Positions 27,535-41,786 of a stretch of 64,000 bases of DNA are shown piece by piece. Location: assembly GCF_024300825.1 (NCBI RefSeq), contig NZ_CP101323.1, positions 992,001 to 1,056,000 on the forward strand, read 5' to 3'. Source of the stretch: Natronomonas gomsonensis. Its GTDB lineage: Archaea > Halobacteriota > Halobacteria > Halobacteriales > Haloarculaceae. The stretch's first letter is position 1. Every line of letters starts with the position of its first letter. The notes below the pieces were generated by a model. It ran no database searches, had not been told where the DNA came from, and saw only the letters and a program-made list of their open reading frames with translations. The translations under genes and the position numbers were made by a program.

Positions 27535-27936
27535 ATGCGAATCGAGTTGCGGGTGTGCAAGCACTGCCACGAGGGAGACCATGGGAACCAACAGAAGACG
27601 GCGGTGACGAGGGACATGGTGGACTGCGCCGAGCGCGTCCGCGAGTACAAGGACCTCATCGGTCTCGACTCCGTCTACATCACCAAAGTCGAAGAGGGCG
27701 ACCCCGGGGGCGCCGAGGCGCTTCCGGCCATCGTCGCCAGCATCGAAAACGACCAAGTGACCCTCTCGGACACCCAGTTGGTCATGGAGGACGAAGACGG
27801 CAACATGCTGGTGTATCCGGAGCCGAAGGACATCCTCGAAGTGCTCACGCGTAACATCGACCAGATTCAAGAGCAGACTCGACAGGACGTCACCGTCGAG
27901 TTATCCGAGGAAGGAGCAAAACTGCTAACGGCCTGA
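27535..27936 (+). CDS. Uncharacterised acidic protein with N-terminal CxxC and histidines
   Basis: 133 residues; I do not recognise the family with certainty. It opens MRIELRVCKHCHEGDHGNQQ, so a Cys-Lys-His-Cys-His cluster lies at the very front and could bind metal. The middle is acidic alpha/beta and the C-terminus helical (ILEVLTRNIDQIQEQ). The gap to the small membrane protein gene is only 77 nt and must hold both divergent promoters. Confidence 0.75.
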   Translation: MRIELRVCKHCHEGDHGNQQKTAVTRDMVDCAERVREYKDLIGLDSVYITKVEEGDPGGAEALPAIVASIENDQVTLSDTQLVMEDEDGNMLVYPEPKDILEVLTRNIDQIQEQTRQDVTVELSEEGAKLLTA

Positions 27937-27953: not shown

Positions 27954-28967
27954 TCAGTCGTCGGTCTGTGGCTCCCCGCCGTCAGCGACCGTCTCGCCCT
28001 CGCGTTGTCGCTGTTGCATCTCTTTCTCCCAGCGGACTCGCATGACGTTGCCGTACATCGAGAGGACGATACCGACGAACAGCACGAACATCCCGATGTT
28101 GATGCCGATGGTGAGAAGCAGGTTGGTCACGTCGCCGCTGACGACCAGTTCCCTCGGGACGGGATACCCCTCCCGAACGATGCTTCCCATCAGCACCGAC
28201 ACGATGCCGACGACGACGAGCGAGCCGAAAATCGTCGACACGGAGTGCCAACTCGGCGCGAGTTCCAGCGCCTCGATGCCGGTTCCCTCGTGGTCGTCGT
28301 CTTCGTCGTGGGACTCCGGAATCATGCTCCGTGGGATGAACGCCTTCGTCTCCACCGGGTAGAACGCGGGGTGCATCCCGTGTTCGAAGATGTGGAACAT
28401 CACTCCCATGACCATGATGACGCCCAACAGGCCGTGGAAGATGACGAACGCCATCGCCGCGGTCCGCGTCGCGAAGTACTGCATCAGTCCGGTTTTCGAC
28501 CAGATGAGCAGCCCCGAGATGGTGAGCAACAGCAGTTCGATGGCGAAGATGAAGACGACCCCCTTGCCGACGTAGGACAGAAGCGGCACCTCGTCGGCCT
28601 CGTAGCCGGCGAACTGCCGGGCGTGCGGGTGGCGTTCGTCCGTCCGCCCGAGCATGAACTGGACGTCCTGCAGGAACGCGTCGACGTCCGCTTTCCGCGG
28701 GAGGATTTCACGGAAGTTGCTTCGGCCGGTCGGACTGATGACCATCAGCACCATCCAGAAGACGATGAGCGCAATGAGTCCGAGTCCCGCGGCGCGGTGG
28801 AGTGCGGTGACCCCGGTCGCACCGCCCATCAGCGTCACCATCCACCACAACTCCGAGTTGAACATGATGGCATAGCCGGTGAAGAACAACAGGAACACGT
28901 CGAGCGCCAAAAGCGAGTGGAACAGCGTCGTCACCCGCGTGAACTTCCCGTGGTCGAGGTTGGTCAT
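27954..28967 (-). CDS. Formate dehydrogenase cytochrome b subunit (FdnI-like)
   Basis: 337 residues with at least five membrane helices. Histidines in the helices (TLFHSLLALDVFLLFFTGY; ALHRAAGLGLIAL; FHGLLGVIMVMGVMFHIFEH) are candidate b-haem ligands. It belongs to the FdnI/HybB-like cytochrome b group that passes electrons from the Fe-S subunit to quinone. It is the last gene of the fdh operon and overlaps the upstream small membrane subunit by 4 nt. Confidence 0.88.
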   Translation of the reverse strand: MTNLDHGKFTRVTTLFHSLLALDVFLLFFTGYAIMFNSELWWMVTLMGGATGVTALHRAAGLGLIALIVFWMVLMVISPTGRSNFREILPRKADVDAFLQDVQFMLGRTDERHPHARQFAGYEADEVPLLSYVGKGVVFIFAIELLLLTISGLLIWSKTGLMQYFATRTAAMAFVIFHGLLGVIMVMGVMFHIFEHGMHPAFYPVETKAFIPRSMIPESHDEDDDHEGTGIEALELAPSWHSVSTIFGSLVVVGIVSVLMGSIVREGYPVPRELVVSGDVTNLLLTIGINIGMFVLFVGIVLSMYGNVMRVRWEKEMQQRQREGETVADGGEPQTDD

Positions 28968-29353
28968 TCCGTCTCACCTCCCGAACCGGAGCCGTCGGCC
29001 ATCACGGCATCACCCGACTCGCTCTCATTGGGGTGACGCATTCGGGCAGCGATTCGACGGAAACTCGCCCAGTGGAGGAACACCATAAACAGGATGAACA
29101 CCCCCATGATGACGTCTGCGGCGTGAACCAGCGCGATGAGGAAATCCAGCGAGGGGATGGTGTTGCCCGCGACCCAGTCGCTACCGACGCCGCCGCCCTC
29201 GACGGTTGGGCTGACCCGGAACAGCGTCTCGTAGAACGGCCCGAAGCCGCTGGCCCACCACACCGACAGGAGCGCGACGGCGACCCCGACGACTGCCGAA
29301 ACGAGGACGGAAATCGGAGAGTAACCGTCGACGTCCGGCGTCTCGTAACTCAT
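28964..29353 (-). CDS. Small membrane subunit in the formate dehydrogenase operon
   Basis: 129 residues with two hydrophobic helices (SPISVLVSAVVGVAVALLSVW and DFLIALVHAADVIMGVFILF). The second contains a histidine, then LHWASFRRIAARM. It overlaps the Fe-S subunit gene (4 nt) and the cytochrome b gene (4 nt), so it is part of the same operon. I do not recognise it in bacterial Fdh-N, which lacks an equivalent; it may be an extra anchor or haem subunit. Confidence 0.8.
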   Translation of the reverse strand: MSYETPDVDGYSPISVLVSAVVGVAVALLSVWWASGFGPFYETLFRVSPTVEGGGVGSDWVAGNTIPSLDFLIALVHAADVIMGVFILFMVFLHWASFRRIAARMRHPNESESGDAVMADGSGSGGETE

Positions 29354-30006
29354 CGGAACTCACCGGCGTCCTCGCCGAAGACGATGTCCATCGCCACGTC
29401 GTTGAAGAACGTACCCTCGTCGCGTTTATCGAGTTCGTCCGCGATTTGGGAGGGTTGCCCGACGAGGATGGCGTCGGTCGAACACTCCTCGGCACAGGCC
29501 GGCCCCTTTCCGATGTCCTGGCGTTCCTCGCACATCGTACACTTGTCCATCTTGCCACCGGTGCCGAACACCTGTGCGGCGCCGTCGTCGGATTCGGGGA
29601 ACTGCGGCGCGCCGAACGGACACGCCGACAGACAGTACTGACAGCCGACACAGAGGTCTTCTCGCACGTCGACGAACTCCTCGTCGGTCTTGATGAGGGA
29701 ATCGGTCGGACACACCGAAACGCAGGGTGCGTTCTCGCAGTGGTAACACTGCATCGGGATGGCCGTCTCGCCGGGGGATTCCCCCTGTGCGAGCGCGGCC
29801 GCACCGGACATCTCGGACCCCTCTTGGCCCTCCAGCATCGTCGAGATGCTGATTCGCTGTTCGTCTCGTGGGACGTCCCACGTGCGTTTGCAGGCGACGA
29901 CACAGCCGCCACAGTCGATGCAGGCGCCGACGTCCGGGAAGATTCGCGTCCCCTCCCCGACGCTCATCACGCCATCGCCCATTACCTCTTTGTTCGATTG
30001 GGACAT
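29350..30006 (-). CDS. Formate dehydrogenase Fe-S subunit, four 4Fe-4S clusters
   Basis: 218 residues of the DmsB/FdnH family. Four cysteine motifs are seen: CIDCGGCVVAC, CYHCENAPCVSVCP, CVGCQYCLSACP and CTMCEERQ...CAEEC. There is no signal of its own, so it would be exported with the Tat-signal-bearing catalytic subunit. It carries electrons from the molybdenum subunit to the cytochrome b. It sits 11 nt downstream of the catalytic gene. Confidence 0.93.
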   Translation of the reverse strand: MSQSNKEVMGDGVMSVGEGTRIFPDVGACIDCGGCVVACKRTWDVPRDEQRISISTMLEGQEGSEMSGAAALAQGESPGETAIPMQCYHCENAPCVSVCPTDSLIKTDEEFVDVREDLCVGCQYCLSACPFGAPQFPESDDGAAQVFGTGGKMDKCTMCEERQDIGKGPACAEECSTDAILVGQPSQIADELDKRDEGTFFNDVAMDIVFGEDAGEFR

Positions 30007-30017
30007 GGATTATCACC

Positions 30018-33000
30018 TCATTGAACTGTTTCGCTGTCACGGACATCGAAGTTCTTCTGTGAACCGATGTCGTTGCGGTCCTGCGGGAACTCGAGGTCCG
30101 CGTCCATCCCGAGCTCCTCGAGTAGCTCCTGTGTCGCCGGTCGGACGGCGACCATCGACACCTTCGTCTCCTGCATCTGCGTCTCGACGTCGTAGCCGCG
30201 CGACGTAATCGCGTTCGCGGAGTCGCCGATGGCGTAGGGGACGGTCCCCTCCGGGTATTTGTCTTCCTGACTGTTCCCCTTGAACACGCCACCCCAGTGG
30301 AACGGCAGGAACACCTCGCCGTCGTTCGGCCGGTCGGTCACGCGTGCCTTCACCAACACCGACCCCCGGTCCGTCGAGGAGACGACGACGAGGTCGCCGC
30401 CGTCGACGCCGATTTCCTCGGCCTTCGCGGGCGTAATCTCGGCGTACATGTGGGGTTGGAGGTCGGCCGTGTGAATGTTCGACCGCGTCTCCGAGCCACC
30501 ACCCTGGTGTTCGACCTGTCGGCCGGTCGTCATGATGGTATCCAGTTCCGGCCCGTCGCTTTCGCCGTGGATGATGTCCATCGCTTCCTGCTGTTCGACG
30601 GCGTTGTTCTGGTCGAGTCGGTAGAAGTTCTGCTGTTGGCCGTTGGCCGGCCACTCCTCGACGAGGTCCGGCCGCGGACTCTCAATGGGTTCGCGGTGAA
30701 CCGGAACCTTGTCGAGGAAGCTCCAGACCACCGCCCGCGCCCGCCCGCGACCGGTCGGGGCGTCGGGCTGGCTGTAGTCGTACTGCTCGTAGAACGACGG
30801 GTCGACGTCTTTTGTGCGTTCGAGATACTCGTCGAACGTCACGCTCCCAGTATCCGGGGAGTCAATCGCCTGTGCGGCGGTGTACACCGACTCTTGGCTG
30901 TCGAGTGCGTACTGCTGTGGAATCGTCAGTTCGTCGGATTGGGTCGACTGCGTCGGGTCGATGAGACTCTTCGGCGGCGTCGTTTTCCAGCCCGGATACT
31001 CGGGGACGCCGTGAATCTGGCCGTCGGCGGCCAACTCCCTGTCGCTGGCCCAGCCGGGGACGTAGGGGTCCCGAATCAGACTCAGCGCGTCCGCTTGGCT
31101 GTCGTACCTGTCGCCGACGGCGTCGACGGTCTCCTGAAGTGGGTAGTCGGCGTCGGTCGGCATCGCGTCCCACTCCTCCGGCGTCGGCGCTTGGACGCCC
31201 CACCGCGTCCGGAAGTCCTGTCCCCCGTCGTTGGGGTTCATATCGTCGTTCCAGATGATGGGCGTCCCTGGATGGCCTTCGCCCCAGCAGGGCCACGGCA
31301 GCATCCAGTACTCGCCCTCGACGGGCGTTCCCTCGGCGCCTTTGAGGTCCTCACTGGAGAAGGCGTAGTCGTACTCCAAGTGCTGTTGGAGCCGTTCGGG
31401 CGTCTGCCGGTAGCCGATGGTGTTCGTCCCGAGGTTGAACTCCCGAATGACGTTCTCGTATGTCGATTTCCCGTTGTAGATTTCGGGACCTGACCCCCAA
31501 TCGAAGTGTTCGCCGAAGCCGAGCGCGTCGGCGAGCTCCTGCATGATTCGCAGGTCGGGTCGGGAGTTGTGTGCGGGCTTTGCGACCGGTTCCGACCACT
31601 GCACCGACCGGTTCGTGTTCGTCAGCGAGCGGTAGTGCTCGTACTGACTCGACGCCGGCAACAACAGAACCGGCGGGCCGTCCTCGTAGTCCGGAAGGAC
31701 GCTCGCGACCGACGGGAACACGTCGATGACGACGAGCAAATCGAGGTTCTCCATGCCCTCTTTCATCTGCTCCATCTCGCTGATGGAGTTCGCCGAGTGG
31801 CCCCAGAACACCGCGATTTTCACCTGGTCGGGTTGGTAAATCGGCGTCTCCTGATAGCGGTCTTCCTGGTCGAGGGCCCCCTCGAACCAGCGGGCTACCG
31901 TGAGCCCGTTTTGGAACATCATCGAGTTCTCGGCGGGTTCCTCGGGACTGTGTCCGGGGTCGTCCCGATTCGCCGGGAGGTCCGCCTCGTCGTTGCCCTC
32001 GTACACCGGGTGTTGACGGACGTACTTATCGGGAGGCATCAACTCGAAGCGGTCGTACATGTCCCCAAAGGACGTCGAACCGCTGGTGTAGGGGTTTTTG
32101 TCCCAGATTTCGGCCCACCACGACCAGCCGCCGGGCGTGAGGCCGTAATAGCCCGGCAGGATGTGACTCGCCACCGCGAGGTCGGTCGCACCTTGGACGT
32201 TGGCGTGGCCACGCATGACCTGCAGGCCGCCGCCGCTTCGGGCGGAACTCCCGGAGGCGAGGCTCAGCGCGGCGTACGAACGGATGTTCTGGGTGCCGTT
32301 GTTGTGCTGGGTGCCGCCCATCGCCCACTCGATTTGGACCTGTGGGCGGTTCTCGTGGACGAGTTCGGCGATTAGCTCTATGTCCTCCTCGGCGACCCAC
32401 GTGATGTCCGACACCGTCTCCTTGTCGTACTGGTCGAGTTCCGCGTCGACGTCCTCCCAGCCCTGGACGCGGTCCGTGAGCATGTTCTGGCCCGTGTCGT
32501 CGGCGGTCGGGTCCATCGCCAGCCCGTACTCGTCGCGGAGTTCCTTGATGACGCCCATCATCAACGCCACGTCGGTGCCGGGCCGGAACCGGACGAACTC
32601 GTCGGCGTGGGCCGCGGTCTTGGTGAACCGGGGGTCTAAAACGAGTATCGTCCCGCCACGTTTCTGGCCCTCCAAGATGTGCTGCATCGCGATGGGGTGG
32701 GCTTCGGCTGGGTTCTGCCCGACGATGATGTTCAAATCGAAGTTCCGGTAGTCCGGAACCGTGTTCGTCATCGCACCGTAGCCCCAGGTGTTCGCCAGTC
32801 CTGCAACCGTCGTCGAGTGACAGATGCGCGCCTGATGGTCGATGTTGTTCGTCCCCATGAACGCCGCGAGCTTTCGGATGGCGTAGGACTCCTCGTTGGA
32901 ATGGTGGGCACTCCCGAGTAACATTACGCTCTCGCGGCTGTGCTCTTCGTCGACGTCGACCGCATCGCTCGGCGATACGTCCGAGTCGGGCCACAGCGCC

Positions 33001-33407
33001 CGGATGTCGGTGGCGAGGCGGTCGTAGGCGGTGTCCCACGAGAGCTTCTGCCACTCGCCGTCCTCCCGAATCATCGGGTGTTTGAGGCGCTTTTCGGAGT
33101 GTTCGGTCTCGTAGATGCCCGCCCCTTTCGAGCAGAGCGAGCCGTTGTTTATCGGGTGATCTTCCCACGGCTCCATGCCGACGAAGGAGTCGCCCTTCCG
33201 CTCGCCGTGGAAGCCACAGCCAACCGAACAGTAGTTACAGATGGTCTTTGTCAACTCTCCTTCCGTGTCCTGTCCGTCGACCTCGTCGTCGTTTTGGGCG
33301 AGTACCTGCCCGGCCGTACCGCCACCGAGTGCCGCCACGCCCGCCAGCGCGCTCGCCTTCATGAACGACCGCCGGTCGAGGTCGAGGGAGACTGGTTCCG
33401 TGCTCAT
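30018..33407 (-). CDS. Formate dehydrogenase catalytic subunit (molybdopterin, Tat-exported, Cys type)
   Basis: 1129 residues from the ATG at 33407. A twin-arginine signal (DRRSFMKASALAGVAALGGG) starts at residue 11. A 4Fe-4S site is at Cys57, Cys60, Cys64 and Cys92. ARICHSTTVAGLAN puts Cys197 and His198 where FdnG has selenocysteine and histidine, followed by GAMTNT, which makes formate the best substrate call. The C-terminal guanine-dinucleotide binding domain (FLPFHWGGVFKG) is present. It oxidises formate to CO2 outside the membrane or in the reverse sense. First gene of a four-gene operon; operator-like repeats precede it. Confidence 0.93.
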   Translation of the reverse strand: MSTEPVSLDLDRRSFMKASALAGVAALGGGTAGQVLAQNDDEVDGQDTEGELTKTICNYCSVGCGFHGERKGDSFVGMEPWEDHPINNGSLCSKGAGIYETEHSEKRLKHPMIREDGEWQKLSWDTAYDRLATDIRALWPDSDVSPSDAVDVDEEHSRESVMLLGSAHHSNEESYAIRKLAAFMGTNNIDHQARICHSTTVAGLANTWGYGAMTNTVPDYRNFDLNIIVGQNPAEAHPIAMQHILEGQKRGGTILVLDPRFTKTAAHADEFVRFRPGTDVALMMGVIKELRDEYGLAMDPTADDTGQNMLTDRVQGWEDVDAELDQYDKETVSDITWVAEEDIELIAELVHENRPQVQIEWAMGGTQHNNGTQNIRSYAALSLASGSSARSGGGLQVMRGHANVQGATDLAVASHILPGYYGLTPGGWSWWAEIWDKNPYTSGSTSFGDMYDRFELMPPDKYVRQHPVYEGNDEADLPANRDDPGHSPEEPAENSMMFQNGLTVARWFEGALDQEDRYQETPIYQPDQVKIAVFWGHSANSISEMEQMKEGMENLDLLVVIDVFPSVASVLPDYEDGPPVLLLPASSQYEHYRSLTNTNRSVQWSEPVAKPAHNSRPDLRIMQELADALGFGEHFDWGSGPEIYNGKSTYENVIREFNLGTNTIGYRQTPERLQQHLEYDYAFSSEDLKGAEGTPVEGEYWMLPWPCWGEGHPGTPIIWNDDMNPNDGGQDFRTRWGVQAPTPEEWDAMPTDADYPLQETVDAVGDRYDSQADALSLIRDPYVPGWASDRELAADGQIHGVPEYPGWKTTPPKSLIDPTQSTQSDELTIPQQYALDSQESVYTAAQAIDSPDTGSVTFDEYLERTKDVDPSFYEQYDYSQPDAPTGRGRARAVVWSFLDKVPVHREPIESPRPDLVEEWPANGQQQNFYRLDQNNAVEQQEAMDIIHGESDGPELDTIMTTGRQVEHQGGGSETRSNIHTADLQPHMYAEITPAKAEEIGVDGGDLVVVSSTDRGSVLVKARVTDRPNDGEVFLPFHWGGVFKGNSQEDKYPEGTVPYAIGDSANAITSRGYDVETQMQETKVSMVAVRPATQELLEELGMDADLEFPQDRNDIGSQKNFDVRDSETVQ

Positions 33408-33607
33408 TCCATTAGTTGGCTCTCTGCCTCGTCTTTGCTTGCGATTCCCTAGCACGTTAGGAATCATCCTATATTAAAATACGGGGCTAGCCGTGGACAT
33501 ATTTTTAAACCAGTGGTCAAAAGCCGTGAGTATTCAACCATTTATCGTTTCTTTTCTGAAAGAAACCGTCGCAAGGCATATATCCGTGGTAGCATTGAAC
33601 ACACTCG
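33408..33607. promoter_or_regulatory. Divergent promoter region of the formate dehydrogenase locus
   Basis: Minus-strand TATA TTTTAATAT at 33471-33480 serves the catalytic subunit with a leader of about 40 nt. Plus-strand TATA CATATATCC at 33577-33584 lies 27 nt before the ATG at 33608. An inverted repeat GTTTCTTT-TCTG-AAAGAAAC (33547-33566) lies just upstream of that box. A second one, GATTCC...GGAATC (33443-33465), lies between the fdh TATA box and start. A GGCTAGCC palindrome is at 33485-33492. The 200 bp are AT-rich relative to the genes. Confidence 0.6.
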
Positions 33608-35755
33608 ATGAATGTAGGGGCGTTCGTCTGCGGCTGTGGTGGAACGTGTAGTGTCGACCTCGAGGGCGTCCGCGAGGGCGTCCGCGACGTCGACGTCGTC
33701 GCGTCCTCGGAGTTGCTCTGTGAGGGCGGCCTCGACGGCGTCGAGCACGTCATCGACGAGTACGACCTCGACCAACTCATCGTGACGGCCCCCGACGACC
33801 GGTGTCAAGAGACGTTCCGGAAGGTACTCGACCGGAAGGGGCTGCACCCGAAGGCCGCGGCGTTCGTCGACCACAGGGAACGCAACGCGTGGGTCCACGA
33901 CGACGCGGCTGCCACCGACAAGACCGCACGCCTGCTCAACGCGACCCACGCCGGTCTACAGGAAGAGGCCGTCTCCCGGACGGTGTCCCGAGAAGCCAGC
34001 GACGAGGTCGCCGTCGTCGGCGACGCCGAAGCGGCGGCGGCCCTCGCCGACTCCGCGGACGTGACCCTCGTCGCCGACGGCAAGGAGTTCGAAAACGCGG
34101 ACATCGACCTCGAAGCCGTCGATATCGCTCGCGGGGAGGTCGTCGGCGTCGATGGGTCGTTCGGCGAGTTCGAACTCACGCTCGAGTCGCGAGTCACCGA
34201 CGCCTGTATCGACTGCATGGAGTGTGTTCGGGAGGGACCCGACAGCGTCACGGCCAGACCCGTACAGATTCCCGCCGACGCCCCCGACGGCGGGTGGACC
34301 GACCTGTGTCCCACCGACGCCATCGAGATGGAGGGAACGACCCGGCGAATCGTCGTCGACCAGGTAGTCTACCCCGACGCCGACTCCGACACCCGCGGCG
34401 GCCGCGTCGGCTACTACACCGGACCCGTCGACGCCGCCACGATAGCGGCCGTCGAAACCCATCTCGGCGGCATCGAGAAGCCAGCCTTCCTCAACCTCGA
34501 GATGGACGTGTGTGCCGCGGGGGAGTCCTCCCAACAGGGTTGTACCGCCTGTACAGACGCCTGCCCGCACGACGCGGTCCAGCGACCCACCATCGACTCC
34601 GTCGAGTTCGACGAGGTAGCCTGTCAGAACTGCGGGGCCTGCACCTCGGCGTGTCCCACGGGTGCGACGAAGCTTCGTGACCCATCCAACCGACGCATCG
34701 CCCGCGAAGTCGAGGCGCTTCTCACCGCCGAGAACGACGACGGTGGCTGGCTGTTTGCCCGCGGGACCGACGGCATCGAACGACCAGTCGTCGCCTTCGT
34801 CTGCTCGGAGCGGGCCGCCGACCGCCTGCGGGAGTACGGCCGTCAGGCCGCACTCGATGAAGGCGTTTCCTACCCGCCGGTGTTGCCCGCGGAGGTCAAC
34901 TGCACCGACACGGTCGGCGAGGCCCACGCCCTCCACGCACTGGCCGCCGGCGCCGACGGCGTCGCGGTCGTCGGCTGTGGGGATTCCTGTCTCCACTCCG
35001 GCCCCGACCCGAAGGCCGAACTCGTCGAGCGACTGAACCGCGCCTGCTCGGATCTCGGATTGGGCGAGCGCGTAACGTTCCTCGCACCGGGTGCCAATCC
35101 CGAGACGTTCTGTGCGGAACTGGAGTCGTTCGTCGACGGCCTCGACGAGTCGCCGGTTCCCACCGGCGAACACGAGGCGACGGGCACCATCGACGGCGAC
35201 ATCGACCGTCCGTCCTTCGCCTCCCACGCGTGGACCCTCGAATCCGTTCGCGTGCTCCTCGAACACGTCGACCCCGACCGAGAAATCGTTCGTGGGCTGA
35301 AGGACTTCGGTCGGATGGAGGTGTCGGACGCCTGCAACCTGACGCCGACGTGTACGAACCTCTGTCCGACCGACGCCATTCAGCGGACCGACGGCGGTGA
35401 CCTGCTTTTCAACCACGAGCGCTGTGTCAACTGCGGCCTCTGTGAGGAGGGCTGTCCGGAGACGGCGATTACGATGCAGGAGGGCTTGGAACTGTCGCTG
35501 TTGCCGGAAAACCGCGAGGAACCGACCGATGGCGTCCCGGAGGAACTCGGGACCGCGTGGACCCGCGTCTACGACGGCGAGATGCAGGAGTGTGTCCGCT
35601 GTGGCAAACCGTTTGCCTCCGCCGGCACCATCGAGACGGTTCGTGGGGAAGTCGGCGACGCCGTCGAAGGTATCGCCCCAGACTCTCCACACTCGGTGTT
35701 CGAGTACTGTGGTGACTGCCGGACGCACCTGCTGTTCGAACGAGGTGAGAACTGA
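33608..35755 (+). CDS. HdrA-like polyferredoxin with embedded MvhD-like domain
   Basis: 715 residues. It begins with the HdrA-type motif FVCGCGGTCSVDL. A shrunken dinucleotide-binding region follows (EVAVVGDAEAAAALADSADV) that lacks the glycine loop for FAD. Fe-S motifs then follow: CIDCMECVREGPDS, CTACTDACPHDAV and CQNCGACTSACP. Residues about 395-515 resemble MvhD, the delta subunit of F420/heterodisulfide-coupled hydrogenases (VVGCGDSCLHSGPDPKAE). After that come CNLTPTCTNLCPTDAI, CVNCGLCEEGCPET and a final CVRCG...CGDC. Divergent from fdh and followed by a TorD-like gene with 1-nt overlap, so probably an electron wire for formate metabolism (inference). Confidence 0.85.
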   Translation: MNVGAFVCGCGGTCSVDLEGVREGVRDVDVVASSELLCEGGLDGVEHVIDEYDLDQLIVTAPDDRCQETFRKVLDRKGLHPKAAAFVDHRERNAWVHDDAAATDKTARLLNATHAGLQEEAVSRTVSREASDEVAVVGDAEAAAALADSADVTLVADGKEFENADIDLEAVDIARGEVVGVDGSFGEFELTLESRVTDACIDCMECVREGPDSVTARPVQIPADAPDGGWTDLCPTDAIEMEGTTRRIVVDQVVYPDADSDTRGGRVGYYTGPVDAATIAAVETHLGGIEKPAFLNLEMDVCAAGESSQQGCTACTDACPHDAVQRPTIDSVEFDEVACQNCGACTSACPTGATKLRDPSNRRIAREVEALLTAENDDGGWLFARGTDGIERPVVAFVCSERAADRLREYGRQAALDEGVSYPPVLPAEVNCTDTVGEAHALHALAAGADGVAVVGCGDSCLHSGPDPKAELVERLNRACSDLGLGERVTFLAPGANPETFCAELESFVDGLDESPVPTGEHEATGTIDGDIDRPSFASHAWTLESVRVLLEHVDPDREIVRGLKDFGRMEVSDACNLTPTCTNLCPTDAIQRTDGGDLLFNHERCVNCGLCEEGCPETAITMQEGLELSLLPENREEPTDGVPEELGTAWTRVYDGEMQECVRCGKPFASAGTIETVRGEVGDAVEGIAPDSPHSVFEYCGDCRTHLLFERGEN

Positions 35756-36402
35756 TGGACGATAACCGAATCTACGAGGCCCGACTGGAAGTGATAGATT
35801 TCCTCATCGAGGTGTTCTACGACGCCCCGAGCGAGGAGTTCCTCGGACGGCTGTTCTCCGGCGACGTAGCCGTTCCCGACGACGAAATCAACGAGCGAAT
35901 GGACCGCGGCTTCGAGCGACTCGAGGCGTTCATCGAGGCCAACCGGTCCCGTCCGGTCGAGGCGGTAGCGGACGAACTCCGAACGGAGTACACCCGGCTG
36001 TTCGTGGGGCCGCGACCGCCGGCGTTGCCCCACGAGACGTACTTCCGTGAGGACACCGAACTCATCGGTGAGGGTCTCACGACGGTCGAAGCCGCCTACT
36101 CGGCGGCCGGGTGGACACCACCGGAGAACTACCCAGAGGAAAACGACCACGTCGCCGTCGAACTCGCGTTCCTCCGGAACCTCGTCGACCGCCAGCGACG
36201 CGGCGAGGAGGCCGCCTTCGATTACGAGCGCGTGCTCATCGATGAGCACCTCCAGACGTGGCACGAACCGTTCCTCGAAACTATCGAATCGGAGCTGGAT
36301 GAGGGCGACGCAGAGACGAACCTCTTTCTCGCTGGCGCGGAGGTACTCGTCGGGTTCGTCGAGTTCGAGGACGAACTCGTCGCCCAGCAGGTTCCTACGT
36401 AG
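35755..36402 (+). CDS. TorD/DmsD-family chaperone
   Basis: 215 residues, all-helical, with the family motif EYTRLFVGPRPPALPHETYF and an EENDHVAVELAFLRNLV helix. TorD-type proteins bind the Tat signal and the apoprotein of molybdoenzymes, so it most likely matures the nearby formate dehydrogenase. The ATG overlaps the stop of the polyferredoxin gene by 1 nt. The end overlaps a convergent small gene by 8 nt. Confidence 0.88.
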   Translation: MDDNRIYEARLEVIDFLIEVFYDAPSEEFLGRLFSGDVAVPDDEINERMDRGFERLEAFIEANRSRPVEAVADELRTEYTRLFVGPRPPALPHETYFREDTELIGEGLTTVEAAYSAAGWTPPENYPEENDHVAVELAFLRNLVDRQRRGEEAAFDYERVLIDEHLQTWHEPFLETIESELDEGDAETNLFLAGAEVLVGFVEFEDELVAQQVPT

Positions 36403-36886: not shown

Positions 36887-37021
36887 TCAACACCAGTGTT
36901 CCCTGTAGGCGTCGTAGACGACGACGGCGACGGCGACGAACCCGAGACCGAGAACGACGAACGAGGTCAACGACGCCTGTGGTGTCGTCCCAAGATGTGC
37001 GATACCATGGACCATGGTCAT
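36887..37021 (-). CDS. Tiny single-helix membrane protein (44 residues)
   Basis: A 44-residue protein starting MTMVHGIAHLG (37021; the second methionine at 37015 is equally possible). It has one helix, SFVVLGLGFVAVAVVVYDAY, and ends in REHWC. The plus-strand motif CTAAAC about 25 nt away gives TTTAG on its strand as a TATA-like element. It leads a three-gene operon of small membrane proteins. Function unknown. Confidence 0.55.
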   Translation of the reverse strand: MTMVHGIAHLGTTPQASLTSFVVLGLGFVAVAVVVYDAYREHWC

Positions 37022-37139
37022 AGTTGTGAATCGCCAGTCTAAACCCTTGTGGACCCCAATCGATTCTGTCACGAATGAAAATCGAACAGTTCACCGAGCC
37101 GCGAAAAACGCTTTTGACTGTTCAGACGTACTCCAGCGC

Positions 37140-38372
37140 ATGCCATCGCGACGCGGCCTCCTCGGACGGCTGGTGGCGCTCGGTGCCGCGACGATTCCGG
37201 GGTGTTCGGCGGTGCTTTCGCGGCGCCGTAACTCGCCGGTGTCGCTCCCGCCGAACCCCCACGAGGTGCCCGACCGCCAGCACGCGTGGGACGCCGTGTT
37301 GCACACCGACGAACATGACAACCGCCAGCCACCGCGTCACCACCGGGTGCTCCTGTTGGAGTTGGATGCCGAGCCGTCAGTCGAGGCAGCCGACACCGTC
37401 GAGACGGCGATGCGAGAGGTGGAAGCCACCTACGAGTGGTCGCCGGAAGGACTCCTCCACGCGCTGGCGTGGGGGACCGACTACTTCGAGCGAATCGGCG
37501 AGTTGAGCGCCTCGCCTATTCGCAAGCCGGAGGTGCTGTCCCGAACCGACGACCCCGACCTCCTCTCCTACGACGCGGCCCTCGTCCTCGCCGCCGACGT
37601 GCCCTCACATCTGGTCCGCACGGAGACGGCGCTGTTCTCGGAGTCCGACTCCCTCGAAGGACGTGACCTCGACGCCCGACTCGGCGAGGTGTTCTCGATT
37701 GCCGGCCGTCGAACCGGGTTCCACGGGGCGGGCCTTCCAGCAGAACACACCGACGCCGAAGGCGTCCCGAACGACATTCCCCAGGACGCACCCATGTTTA
37801 CCGGCTTTATGTCGATGCGCCGGGGCACACAGCCGAGCGAGGACCGCGTTACCATCGACGACGGAGCCCTCGACGACAGCCGCTTCGACGGCGGCACGAC
37901 GATGCATCTCTCGCATCTCTCGGAGTCACTCGACGACTGGTGGGCGATGGCCGACGAAGAGCGCGTCGCTCGGATGTTCTCACCCGACTTCTCCCCCTCG
38001 GACATCGACGCGCTGACCGACACCGTACCGTTTGCCGACAGCGCCTTCGACCACGCCGCGGAGTTCGGCGTCGTCGGCCACCACGAGAAGGTGGCTCGGG
38101 CGCGCGAGGATGGCAAACCGGTCATCCTGCGTCGGGACTTCAACACCACAGACGGCGGCCGAGCGGGCGTCCACTTCCTGTCGTTTCAGGCGTCCCTCGA
38201 CGACTTCGTCGCCACGCGGAAGGCGATGAACGGGTGGTTCCTGCGCAACGAGCACGAACAAGTGACCGACAGGAAGAACAACGGCCTGCTGAACTTCATC
38301 GAGGTGGAGTCGCGGGCGAACTTCTACGTGCCGCCGCGTTCCGACCGAGCGTTTCCGGCGTTCTCGCCGTAG
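37140..38372 (+). CDS. Tat-exported DyP-like haem peroxidase
   Basis: 410 residues from the ATG at 37140. The N-terminus reads MPSRRGLLGRLVALGAATIPGC: a twin-arginine signal with a lipobox-like cysteine at residue 22. The body resembles dye-decolourising peroxidases: GFMSMRRGTQPSEDRV and GGTTMHLSHL, then LRRDFNTTDGGRAGVHFLSF near the C-terminus. Such enzymes use H2O2 with a haem bound through a histidine in the C-terminal half. The family may be the haloarchaeal DUF7405 group (from memory). The preceding region is divergent from the small membrane operon. Confidence 0.75.
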   Translation: MPSRRGLLGRLVALGAATIPGCSAVLSRRRNSPVSLPPNPHEVPDRQHAWDAVLHTDEHDNRQPPRHHRVLLLELDAEPSVEAADTVETAMREVEATYEWSPEGLLHALAWGTDYFERIGELSASPIRKPEVLSRTDDPDLLSYDAALVLAADVPSHLVRTETALFSESDSLEGRDLDARLGEVFSIAGRRTGFHGAGLPAEHTDAEGVPNDIPQDAPMFTGFMSMRRGTQPSEDRVTIDDGALDDSRFDGGTTMHLSHLSESLDDWWAMADEERVARMFSPDFSPSDIDALTDTVPFADSAFDHAAEFGVVGHHEKVARAREDGKPVILRRDFNTTDGGRAGVHFLSFQASLDDFVATRKAMNGWFLRNEHEQVTDRKNNGLLNFIEVESRANFYVPPRSDRAFPAFSP

Positions 38373-39340: not shown

Positions 39341-40054
39341 TTACTCCACCTGCCACTCTGCTTTCTCCGCGGCGTCCTCCAGCGGGAGGAACTCCCAGCC
39401 ATCCGGTGTCCACCCCGCCTCCTCGGGGACGCCGACGAGGACGAACCGCTCGGCGTAGAACATCGAGTGGCGGTTGATTTCCGCGAGGCGTTCGGTGGGA
39501 CCGGTGCCGCTTCCGCTGAAGAAATCCACGTCTATGGTGTGCTCTCGCTGGAATCGGTTGATGACGTGGGCCGGTACGTCGCCGACCAACCCGAGCCAGT
39601 CGGCCCACTCTGCCGCGTCCGCGAAGACGTAGGCGGGATTTTCCAGCCGTTTTGCGGCTTCGTAGGTGAGCGCGAGCGTCATGTCGTCGGCGTCCCCGCC
39701 GTGTGGACCGGACGCCTGCTGGCTGTCGGCCTCCGACGCCTCCGGTTGCGCGGCTTCGGGGTCCGCACTCCGGCCGGCACCGCCCCCGGAACCGCCGCCT
39801 TCGACGGGAATACCTGCCGGCCTGTCTTTGTTCTCGTGGGGGACGTGGGGGACCGCCCCGGAGCCACCGTCTTCGTCGGTGGTGCTTCCACCCCCTGGGT
39901 CCGCGTTCCGAGCGGCCCTTGTTTCGGCTTCCGGGGAGTCGGATTGCTCCGGCTGCGATTGGTCGGCATCATCGCGCCAGAGCCAGTCACCGTCGTTTCC
40001 GGTCTCCGATTCGGATTCGGTCTCGATGTCGTCGAGATCGATTTCGTCAGTCAT
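39341..40054 (-). CDS. DUF7124-like protein with long low-complexity acidic N-terminus
   Basis: 237 residues. The first 120 are disordered, rich in E, D, S, G and P. The C-terminal 115 are a compact domain starting MTLALTYEAAKRLENP and ending LPLEDAAEKAEWQVE. The same domain occurs alone at 50784-51173, so this is a family member with an added tail. The ATG overlaps the stop of the aldehyde:ferredoxin oxidoreductase gene by 8 nt, so it is translated with it. Confidence 0.75.
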   Translation of the reverse strand: MTDEIDLDDIETESESETGNDGDWLWRDDADQSQPEQSDSPEAETRAARNADPGGGSTTDEDGGSGAVPHVPHENKDRPAGIPVEGGGSGGGAGRSADPEAAQPEASEADSQQASGPHGGDADDMTLALTYEAAKRLENPAYVFADAAEWADWLGLVGDVPAHVINRFQREHTIDVDFFSGSGTGPTERLAEINRHSMFYAERFVLVGVPEEAGWTPDGWEFLPLEDAAEKAEWQVE

Positions 40055-41786
40055 CGTCGAGTGTCAGGGAGTTCGACGCCACGGGCGTCTCCTCGTCGAC
40101 CGCTTCGAGCAGGTCCAGCCGGTCAAGCGTCTCTTGGGCCGGGATGCCGGCTTCGCTCCAGCCGCGGGCCGCGTAGTAGCGGTCGAGCGTCGCCTCGAAC
40201 TCAACCGACAACTCCTCGGGGTCGACGACGGCAGGGAGCGCGTCGTCGGCTCGGTCGAACCCCTCCCGGACGTTGAACAGCCGAACGAGGTTCCAGATGC
40301 GCTCGCCGGTCCGGCCGAGGTCGTCGTAGGGGGCGCCGACCGAATCGAGCCACTCGGCGCCGTCGTCGGCCAGTACCTCGCCGACGAAGTCGTCGGCGAC
40401 GAGCGACCACCGCACCGAGCGGGTGTCCTGTGCGGCGGCGACCGACCGGACCGCTCGGTCGGGGCTCCACGGCCCGTCGAACGCCTCTTCCTCGACCGGG
40501 CGGGCCCGGCGGTGACACCCACCTCGGTCGCTCGTCGCGTAGGCCAGCGCCATGCTCGCGGCGCCGCGGGGGTCGTATGCTGGAAGTTCCATCTCCTTGA
40601 CCGTCGGCACCAACTCGCCGCCACCGTACTCCCGAGCCGCGGCGTCGACGCCGTCTGCCAGGGCGTCACCGAGCGGCGTCGAACGGGTCGCCACGGCTTC
40701 CAGTAGCTCTCGGGCGCCCGCCGCATCGCCGAAACGAACGTTGACCTCTACCAACCCCGCCTCGCTGGCGCGGGCCGCCCACGCCACCGCATTGCCCGCG
40801 GAAATGAGGTCGAGCCCGAGCCGGTTACAGCGCTCGCCCAACTCGGCGACGGCGTCGAAATCGTCCAACGCGAGGCCGGCACCGAGCGTCATGGCGGTCG
40901 CACCTCGTGGCACCGAGTCGCCGGCCTCAGTCTTGATGCGAAAGCCGCCCGGAATCGGTCCGTCGTGCTCCCGCTCGATTGTGCGTGCCCGGACGGCACC
41001 GACGCCGACGCTTTCGGCGCTGTCGAACCCGCGCTCGGTCCACCCGCGCGCAGCGAGCACGCCGGTTTCGTCGGCGAACTCCACCGTCTCGACGGTGCCA
41101 GAGGCGGCTTGCCACTTGCCGGTATCGTCGCGCCGATACCGCTCGGCGTAGCGCCGACGGAGGTCCGAAAACCCCTCCGGAGAGTCACCCCGGGCGACGA
41201 CCGCCTTCAGCGATTTCGAGCCCATCACCGCGCCGGCACCGCCGCGCCCGGCGTGGTGTTCGGCGCCGTCGGAGGCTATCGTCGCGTACGCCACCTCGGC
41301 CTCTCCGGCCGGGCCGATACATGCCACCGCGCCGTCGTGGGCCTCGGCCGTCTCGGCGGCGTCGAGGCCCGCAGTCTCTGCTGGCTCGATGCGTGCGTCA
41401 CCGTCTTCGACGACGAGGCGGACGAACTCCTCGGCCGCACCGGTCACGAGAACGCCGAGGTGGTCACCGAGCGCACCGGCGAGCGTCGTCGGGAACGAAC
41501 CACCGGCATAGGAGTCGAGGAACGTCCCCGTCAGCGGCGATTTCGTCACCGCGGCGTAGCGGTCCTCGCCGGGGAGAAGCCCCGAAACCGGACCCAGCAT
41601 GAACAGCAAGGCGTTGTCGGGCCCCAGCGGGTCCACGCCCGGAGACAGTTCCTCGTAGAGATACCGAGCGCCCAGTCCCTTCCCGCCGACGTACTTCCGT
41701 CGCCACGCCTCCGGAACGCGTTCGCTCTCGACGGTGCCCGAAGAGAGGTCCACGCGCAACAGCCGATTCGGGGCAGGGCGTGCCAT
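40047..41786 (-). CDS. Aldehyde:ferredoxin oxidoreductase family protein
   Basis: 579 residues of the tungsten/molybdenum AOR family. N-terminus LLRVDLSSGTVESERVPE and GGKGLGARYLYEELS, then the family segment VMGSKSLKAVVARGD. Further family blocks are GLDLISAGNAVAWAARASE and the C-terminal region. The canonical CxxC-x3-C cluster motif is not obvious near residue 300, where I see NRLGLDLISAGN instead of a CxxDxxxC-type loop. Cluster content should therefore be checked. It oxidises aldehydes to acids with ferredoxin as acceptor in characterised members. It overlaps a DUF7124-like gene. Confidence 0.82.
   Translation of the reverse strand: MARPAPNRLLRVDLSSGTVESERVPEAWRRKYVGGKGLGARYLYEELSPGVDPLGPDNALLFMLGPVSGLLPGEDRYAAVTKSPLTGTFLDSYAGGSFPTTLAGALGDHLGVLVTGAAEEFVRLVVEDGDARIEPAETAGLDAAETAEAHDGAVACIGPAGEAEVAYATIASDGAEHHAGRGGAGAVMGSKSLKAVVARGDSPEGFSDLRRRYAERYRRDDTGKWQAASGTVETVEFADETGVLAARGWTERGFDSAESVGVGAVRARTIEREHDGPIPGGFRIKTEAGDSVPRGATAMTLGAGLALDDFDAVAELGERCNRLGLDLISAGNAVAWAARASEAGLVEVNVRFGDAAGARELLEAVATRSTPLGDALADGVDAAAREYGGGELVPTVKEMELPAYDPRGAASMALAYATSDRGGCHRRARPVEEEAFDGPWSPDRAVRSVAAAQDTRSVRWSLVADDFVGEVLADDGAEWLDSVGAPYDDLGRTGERIWNLVRLFNVREGFDRADDALPAVVDPEELSVEFEATLDRYYAARGWSEAGIPAQETLDRLDLLEAVDEETPVASNSLTLDDD

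Follow-up and report, generated by a model that had tools for sequence, protein, structure and literature searches.

What does a long polyferredoxin that resembles the HdrA subunit of heterodisulfide reductase do beside a formate dehydrogenase (FDH) in the haloarchaeon Natronomonas gomsonensis? Its gene lies in the window, which is the whole stretch of 64,000 nucleotides that was analysed, and an earlier note had suggested that the product could be a previously undescribed wire joining formate to ferredoxin or another acceptor. As seen in Table 1, the gene is divergent from fdhA across a gap of 140-bp, and its stop codon overlaps the start of a TorD-type gene by one base; the divergent orientation and the tie to a TorD-type gene had already been described in the earlier note. 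This second gene matches PF02613 with 92 bits against a cut-off of 22.2; it is not TorD proper, for which it reaches 40 bits versus 132. FdhA displays the RRSFMK twin-arginine motif, the Mo-bisPGD domains PF00384, PF01568 and PF04879, and the RICHS motif of the FDH Cys-His type. The large subunit is probably a formate dehydrogenase according to its best matches and the RICHS motif, with 406.8 bits versus the FDH equivalog cut-off of 666.

Table 1. Features of the fdh locus and of the polyferredoxin, with positions in the window
Feature	Position	Strand	Remarks
Conserved neighbour	27535..27936	+	133 aa, CKHCHEGDH; possible locus member
Cytochrome b anchor of FDH	27954..28967	-	Ni_hydr_CYTB
Membrane protein of fdh operon	28964..29353	-	129 aa, no family
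FDH beta subunit	29350..30006	-	ferredoxin type
Probable formate dehydrogenase large subunit (fdhA)	30018..33467	-	twin-arginine motif, RICHS active-site motif
Polyferredoxin gene	33608..35755	+	715 aa; HdrA-MvhD fusion, predicted flavin-less, with HycF-like C-terminal module
HdrA N-terminal domain	33608..33997	+	residues 1-130; Cys 8/10/38/66 (HdrA type)
HdrA flavin-domain remnant	33998..34480	+	residues 131-291, without GxGxxG; contains C200/C203/C206/C234
Ferredoxin pair, equivalent of HdrA C-terminal ferredoxin	34511..34675	+	residues 302-356; core kept in bacteria too
MvhD/FlpD domain (PF02662)	34787..35143	+	residues 394-512; C399/C432/C457/C461
HycF-like module	35303..35740	+	residues 566-711; two ferredoxin motifs and quartet C662/C665/C701/C704
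TorD/NarJ-type chaperone gene	35755..36402	+	
DUF7405/Dyp-type peroxidase-like gene	37014..38372	+	downstream of torD
AFOR-like tungstoenzyme relative	40047..41786	-	

Several other genes of this region were recorded in their own right. The 129-aa membrane protein, which has no family above cut-off, sits between the FDH beta and cytochrome b genes, and it is found in the same place in loci L055-L058. The 133-aa CKHCHEGDH protein belongs to no Pfam or NCBIfam family, and its structure model is weak (pLDDT 66.6). Its gene lies no more than 12 kb from that of the polyferredoxin in 69/70 loci, and immediately upstream of the latter in L037, L039 and L045-L047; a second clade of this protein (about 41-60% identity) exists in many genomes of the order. 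In L032 and L058, genes similar to the DUF7405/Dyp-type peroxidase-like gene are found close to the locus. All four Fe-S cysteines, those of CxxCxxxC together with the C-terminal Cys, are gone from the AFOR-like protein, a loss also seen in L032, L037, L039, L045, L046, L048, L057 and L058. At E 1e-60, relatives of this protein exist in 156/293 genomes of the order, part of which were checked for the cysteine loss, and the AFORs at the divergent polyferredoxin loci L050, L051 and L053 retain their cysteines.

The relationship of the polyferredoxin to HdrA was examined by profile comparison (hhalign), in which 18 haloarchaeal orthologs were set against 11 HdrA sequences, several of them fused to MvhD. 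Residues 1-516 are collinear throughout with HdrA and a C-terminal MvhD (probability 99.95, E 1.2e-37), and the front matches HdrA residues 2-145. The GxGxxG loop of HdrA reads VVGDAEAAAAL in the polyferredoxin, and the second half of the FAD/thioredoxin-reductase module is deleted. The HdrA-like front with a lost flavin loop proposed in the earlier note is thus borne out, and neither the profile nor the predicted structure contains an intact FAD site. Identity as an ordinary HdrA is ruled out by the deletion of the FAD half. PF02662 (FlpD/MvhD) matches residues 394-512 (E 7.5e-14; 52.2 bits versus a gathering score of 22.3), in agreement with the MvhD-like domain that had been placed at residues about 395-515. 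This domain was earlier taken for an insert; however, type Ia HdrA carries a C-terminally fused MvhD in the same place (PMC12054007), so that it represents the usual C-terminal fusion.

The AlphaFold2 model of the polyferredoxin (mean pLDDT 80, pTM 0.81) is consistent with this architecture. Modelled residues 1-374 appear to fit HdrA (Z up to 13.1), with residues 126-291 covering just part of the HdrA flavin domain, while residues 394-512 appear to fit MvhD (Foldseek rmsd 2.2) and residues 566-711 HycF of formate hydrogenlyase (Z 9.2). This HycF-like module, at about 566-711, was absent from the earlier description of the protein. Compared to HdrA2 or type Ia HdrA, the N-terminal domain with its conserved Cys, the C-terminal ferredoxin pair and the MvhD domain stand in identical order. 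By contrast, the FAD-binding thioredoxin-reductase half with its GxGxxG is lacking, an extra HycF-like C-terminal module is present, and the gene is tied to an exported FDH and TorD, with no HdrBC found in the locus. The protein also falls below the curated HdrA NCBIfam cut-offs, with 110.6, 91.3 and 79.8 bits versus 1100, 1300 and 1400. As previously noted, no HdrB, HdrC or hydrogenase gene was found in the locus, and a NiFe hydrogenase was not found in the genome. A genome-wide search for the CCG motif of the HdrB type, which does not separate HdrB from other CCG proteins, gave only two matches, both far from the locus and within open frames that are 737 and 1053 codons long. The favoured reading is that the polyferredoxin descends from a fusion of HdrA with MvhD which gave up its flavin and acquired a HycF-like module.

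At the level of motifs, the earlier count of at least six predicted Fe-S motifs in the 715 residues was right. Apart from the front and MvhD-type cysteines, these are C200-x2-C203-x2-C206-x27-C234, C302-x9-C312-x2-C315-x3-C319 with C339-x2-C342-x2-C345-x3-C349, C576-x5-C582-x3-C586 with C606-x2-C609-x2-C612-x3-C616, and the C-terminal quartet C662-x2-C665-x35-C701-x2-C704. Among 18 aligned archaeal and bacterial sequences, the invariant core consists of C302, C312, C315, C319, C339, C345 and C349 in its first half, and of C576, C582, C586, C606, C609, C612, C616 and the C-terminal quartet in its second; outside the 18, a few sequences differ at two of these positions. This core would hold about four Fe-S clusters and one metal site. 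The main haloarchaeal clades retain the cysteines of the HdrA front and of MvhD, which more divergent clades have lost. Most bacterial forms are without the MvhD cysteines and many have a shortened front; the MvhD domain is retained in the SAR324 ortholog.

HycF has a C-terminal Cys quartet of the form CxxC-x34-CPxC, at which a metal ion is bound close to the interface with formate dehydrogenase (PMC9474812). The polyferredoxin shares with HycF of E. coli formate hydrogenlyase two Fer4 motifs and a CxxC-x35-CxxC quartet. It differs in that its Fer4 motifs are one Cys short (the C579 position is Thr in the main haloarchaeal type), in that the HycF-like part is only a portion of a longer chain, and in that the partner FDH is exported, not cytoplasmic, with no hydrogenase. 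Its score against the curated HycF model PRK12387 is 53.9 bits versus a cut-off of 204.

The distribution of the gene was determined in 293 genomes of the order, with FDH counted as present at 48% identity or more to the FDH of this locus. The polyferredoxin exists in 89/293 genomes and FDH in 86/293; both occur in 84. The gene is thus not one that mostly occurs without fdh, the outcome that the earlier note had named as speaking against its idea. The number rises to 85 once the divergent polyferredoxin copy beside the FDH of the apparent exception G243 is counted. In G010, which has an FDH of this kind, no polyferredoxin was found in the 17 kb around it. Fisher's test gives p 1.6e-64, a value that describes the table, as the counts share ancestry. 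The usual arrangement is a polyferredoxin divergent from fdhA with a TorD-type gene directly after it, and a TorD match lies within 1 kb of 82 of the 94 polyferredoxin hit segments; several genes lie between the two in five archaeal loci. A twin-arginine-like motif was detected in 46/48 partner large subunits by a pattern search, which is not a trained predictor, and the other two look cut or frameshifted at the motif end.

An AFOR-like gene also lies within 12 kb in 54/70 loci, and in L050, L051 and L053 it is 30-55 bp from the polyferredoxin gene. It is nevertheless very improbable that the polyferredoxin exchanges electrons with the AFOR-like protein encoded in the same island and not with FDH: in the main type the AFOR-like protein has lost its Fe-S ligands, it is present in many genomes that have neither FDH nor polyferredoxin, and it is missing from most bacterial loci.

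Bacterial orthologs are divergent (20-28% identity) and share the core cysteines. Of 42 orthologous bacterial loci listed, an FDH large subunit is encoded in 33 and TorD likewise in 33; several of those without one or the other are truncated by contig ends. The fdhD gene is often near. The label 'previously undescribed' holds only in part: a bacterial operon containing it was drawn in 2015, where the 'fer4' gene of the torD-fdhGHI operons with DUF3305/DUF3306 (PMC4464133) is a divergent ortholog in the same TorD and fdhA neighbourhood, whereas our literature search found no functional study of the polyferredoxin or its bacterial orthologs. Shewanella SO_4506, which an RNA-seq table lists together with FdhT and FdhA (PMC5826389), is probably another ortholog, judging by its position.

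FDH is not the only partner. In the haloarchaeal genomes G016, G025, G037 and G267, in a second copy in G063, and in N. bangense, the polyferredoxin is accompanied by a Phs/Psr-like molybdoenzyme with an NrfD anchor, and TorD is kept; in G223, TorD, polyferredoxin and Mrp are kept and no partner enzyme was seen. In the tree, the archaeal Phs/Psr-partnered clade (support 100/99) nests among FDH-partnered lineages. The betaproteobacterial locus L084 combines a Phs-like Mo enzyme with TorD and polyferredoxin, apparently through an independent switch. Because the polyferredoxin changes partner at least twice, an FDH-specific function is ruled out as the whole story, and the constant partners across the switches are TorD and a Tat-signalled molybdoenzyme. 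Additionally, in 6/7 haloarchaeal loci of the non-FDH type the polyferredoxin gene is followed by one for an Fe-S carrier ATPase of the Mrp/NUBPL kind, which has an FeS-assembly domain; such a gene also lies near the polyferredoxin in several alphaproteobacteria. As for the Phs/Psr-like operon itself (L035, 2990-8218; also L038 and L040-L043), it contains a Tat-signalled enzyme, an NrfD anchor and a small 64-aa gene, then TorD and polyferredoxin; that of N. bangense adjoins ars genes.

These data bear on the proposed wire, in which the polyferredoxin would take electrons from FDH through its HycF-like or MvhD-like part and pass them to ferredoxin or another cytoplasmic acceptor. All its modules are electron carriers, its co-occurrence with FDH is near-perfect, formate dehydrogenase of methanogens feeds HdrA through MvhD (PDB 7bkb), and HycF links FDH-H to hydrogenase (PMC9474812). 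However, the finished FDH active site is expected outside the cell because of the twin-arginine motif on FdhA and the cytochrome b anchor in the operon, whereas neither a signal peptide nor a hydrophobic segment was found in the polyferredoxin (maximum 19-residue hydropathy 1.31). Mature FDH and the polyferredoxin would therefore lie on opposite sides of the membrane, which disfavours a wire. Moreover, the FAD site is lost, neither a hydrogenase nor an HdrBC partner was found in the locus, and the polyferredoxin gene also accompanies enzymes other than FDH. We regard a wire from formate to ferredoxin as quite unlikely.

On balance, the comparative argument favours a different role, and the polyferredoxin probably acts in the cytoplasm, with TorD and before export, as an Fe-S maturation factor of Mo/W oxidoreductases that leave by Tat. 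TorD, which belongs to a known class of maturation chaperones, would keep hold of the signal peptide while the large subunit is still unfinished, and the polyferredoxin would dock on this precursor, perhaps via its HycF-like end, and supply Fe-S clusters, or electrons for cluster and cofactor insertion, before Tat export. Its cytoplasmic location, the docking, and the transfer of clusters or electrons are what we infer. In E. coli formate hydrogenlyase, HycF contacts an FDH large subunit. NapF is a cytoplasmic four-cluster protein on which the Fe-S loading of NapA depends in R. sphaeroides and which binds NapA in E. coli (both reviewed in PMC10609526). FDH-H reaches full activity only with HydN (PMC6004506), and FDH activity in C. 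jejuni requires FdhM, a TorD homologue encoded next to fdh (PMC4148689). By analogy, the polyferredoxin would, with the same modest likelihood, work like NapF or HydN, which are likewise multi-[4Fe-4S] accessory proteins adjoining a Mo enzyme; its most conserved core is predicted to hold a similar number of clusters, about four. It differs in being much longer, in its HdrA/MvhD origin, and in pairing with TorD, not NapD. NapF is also another family, since the polyferredoxin scores 39.1 bits versus 102.2 for the equivalog TIGR00402.

Several points stand against a maturation role. Every domain of the polyferredoxin is of a kind that transfers electrons, and in formate hydrogenlyase HycF itself forms part of a wire. 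Further points are the fdhD genes near bacterial orthologs, the FDH without a polyferredoxin in G010, and the five archaeal loci with the polyferredoxin apart from TorD. A related possibility is that the protein is a reductive activator or redox gatekeeper, which would reduce or sense the Fe-S/Mo centres of the precursor so that only working enzyme reaches TorD and Tat, with the clusters coming from Suf. Its many cluster types suit electron transfer, a HycF-type metal site has been proposed to be redox-responsive at the FDH interface (PMC9474812), and the genetic context is the same as for cluster delivery, for which, however, the Mrp/NUBPL neighbour argues somewhat. We consider this activator or gatekeeper role unlikely.

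The maturation role touches on a known gap. Halobacteria often have FDH without FdhD, and a 2023 review asks which proteins insert and sulfurate the cofactor (PMC10609526). In our search, FdhD (PF02634) was found in 0/293 genomes of the order, with or without FDH, while the search gave a signal in 8/14 control genomes; FdhE was found in 0/60 genomes. As the most constant neighbour of FDH, the polyferredoxin-TorD pair may well be a candidate that supplies part of the answer. It is not simply a replacement for FdhD, because bacterial orthologs are often near fdhD. The stronger proposal, that polyferredoxin and TorD, perhaps joined by the 133-aa protein and by the AFOR-like protein that lacks the cluster, are the missing haloarchaeal machinery for Mo/W-cofactor insertion and sulfuration in FDH without FdhD, seems rather improbable.

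The polyferredoxin appears to be an HdrA that has abandoned flavin chemistry. Its near-constant pairing, together with TorD, with FDH makes the question of FdhD-less maturation testable by deletion, and if the two were indeed the Mo/W-cofactor machinery, an HdrA-type electron-transfer subunit would have turned into a metalloenzyme maturase. Moreover, a role in maturation hints at what an uncharacterised gene found in many FDH operons of bacteria may do.
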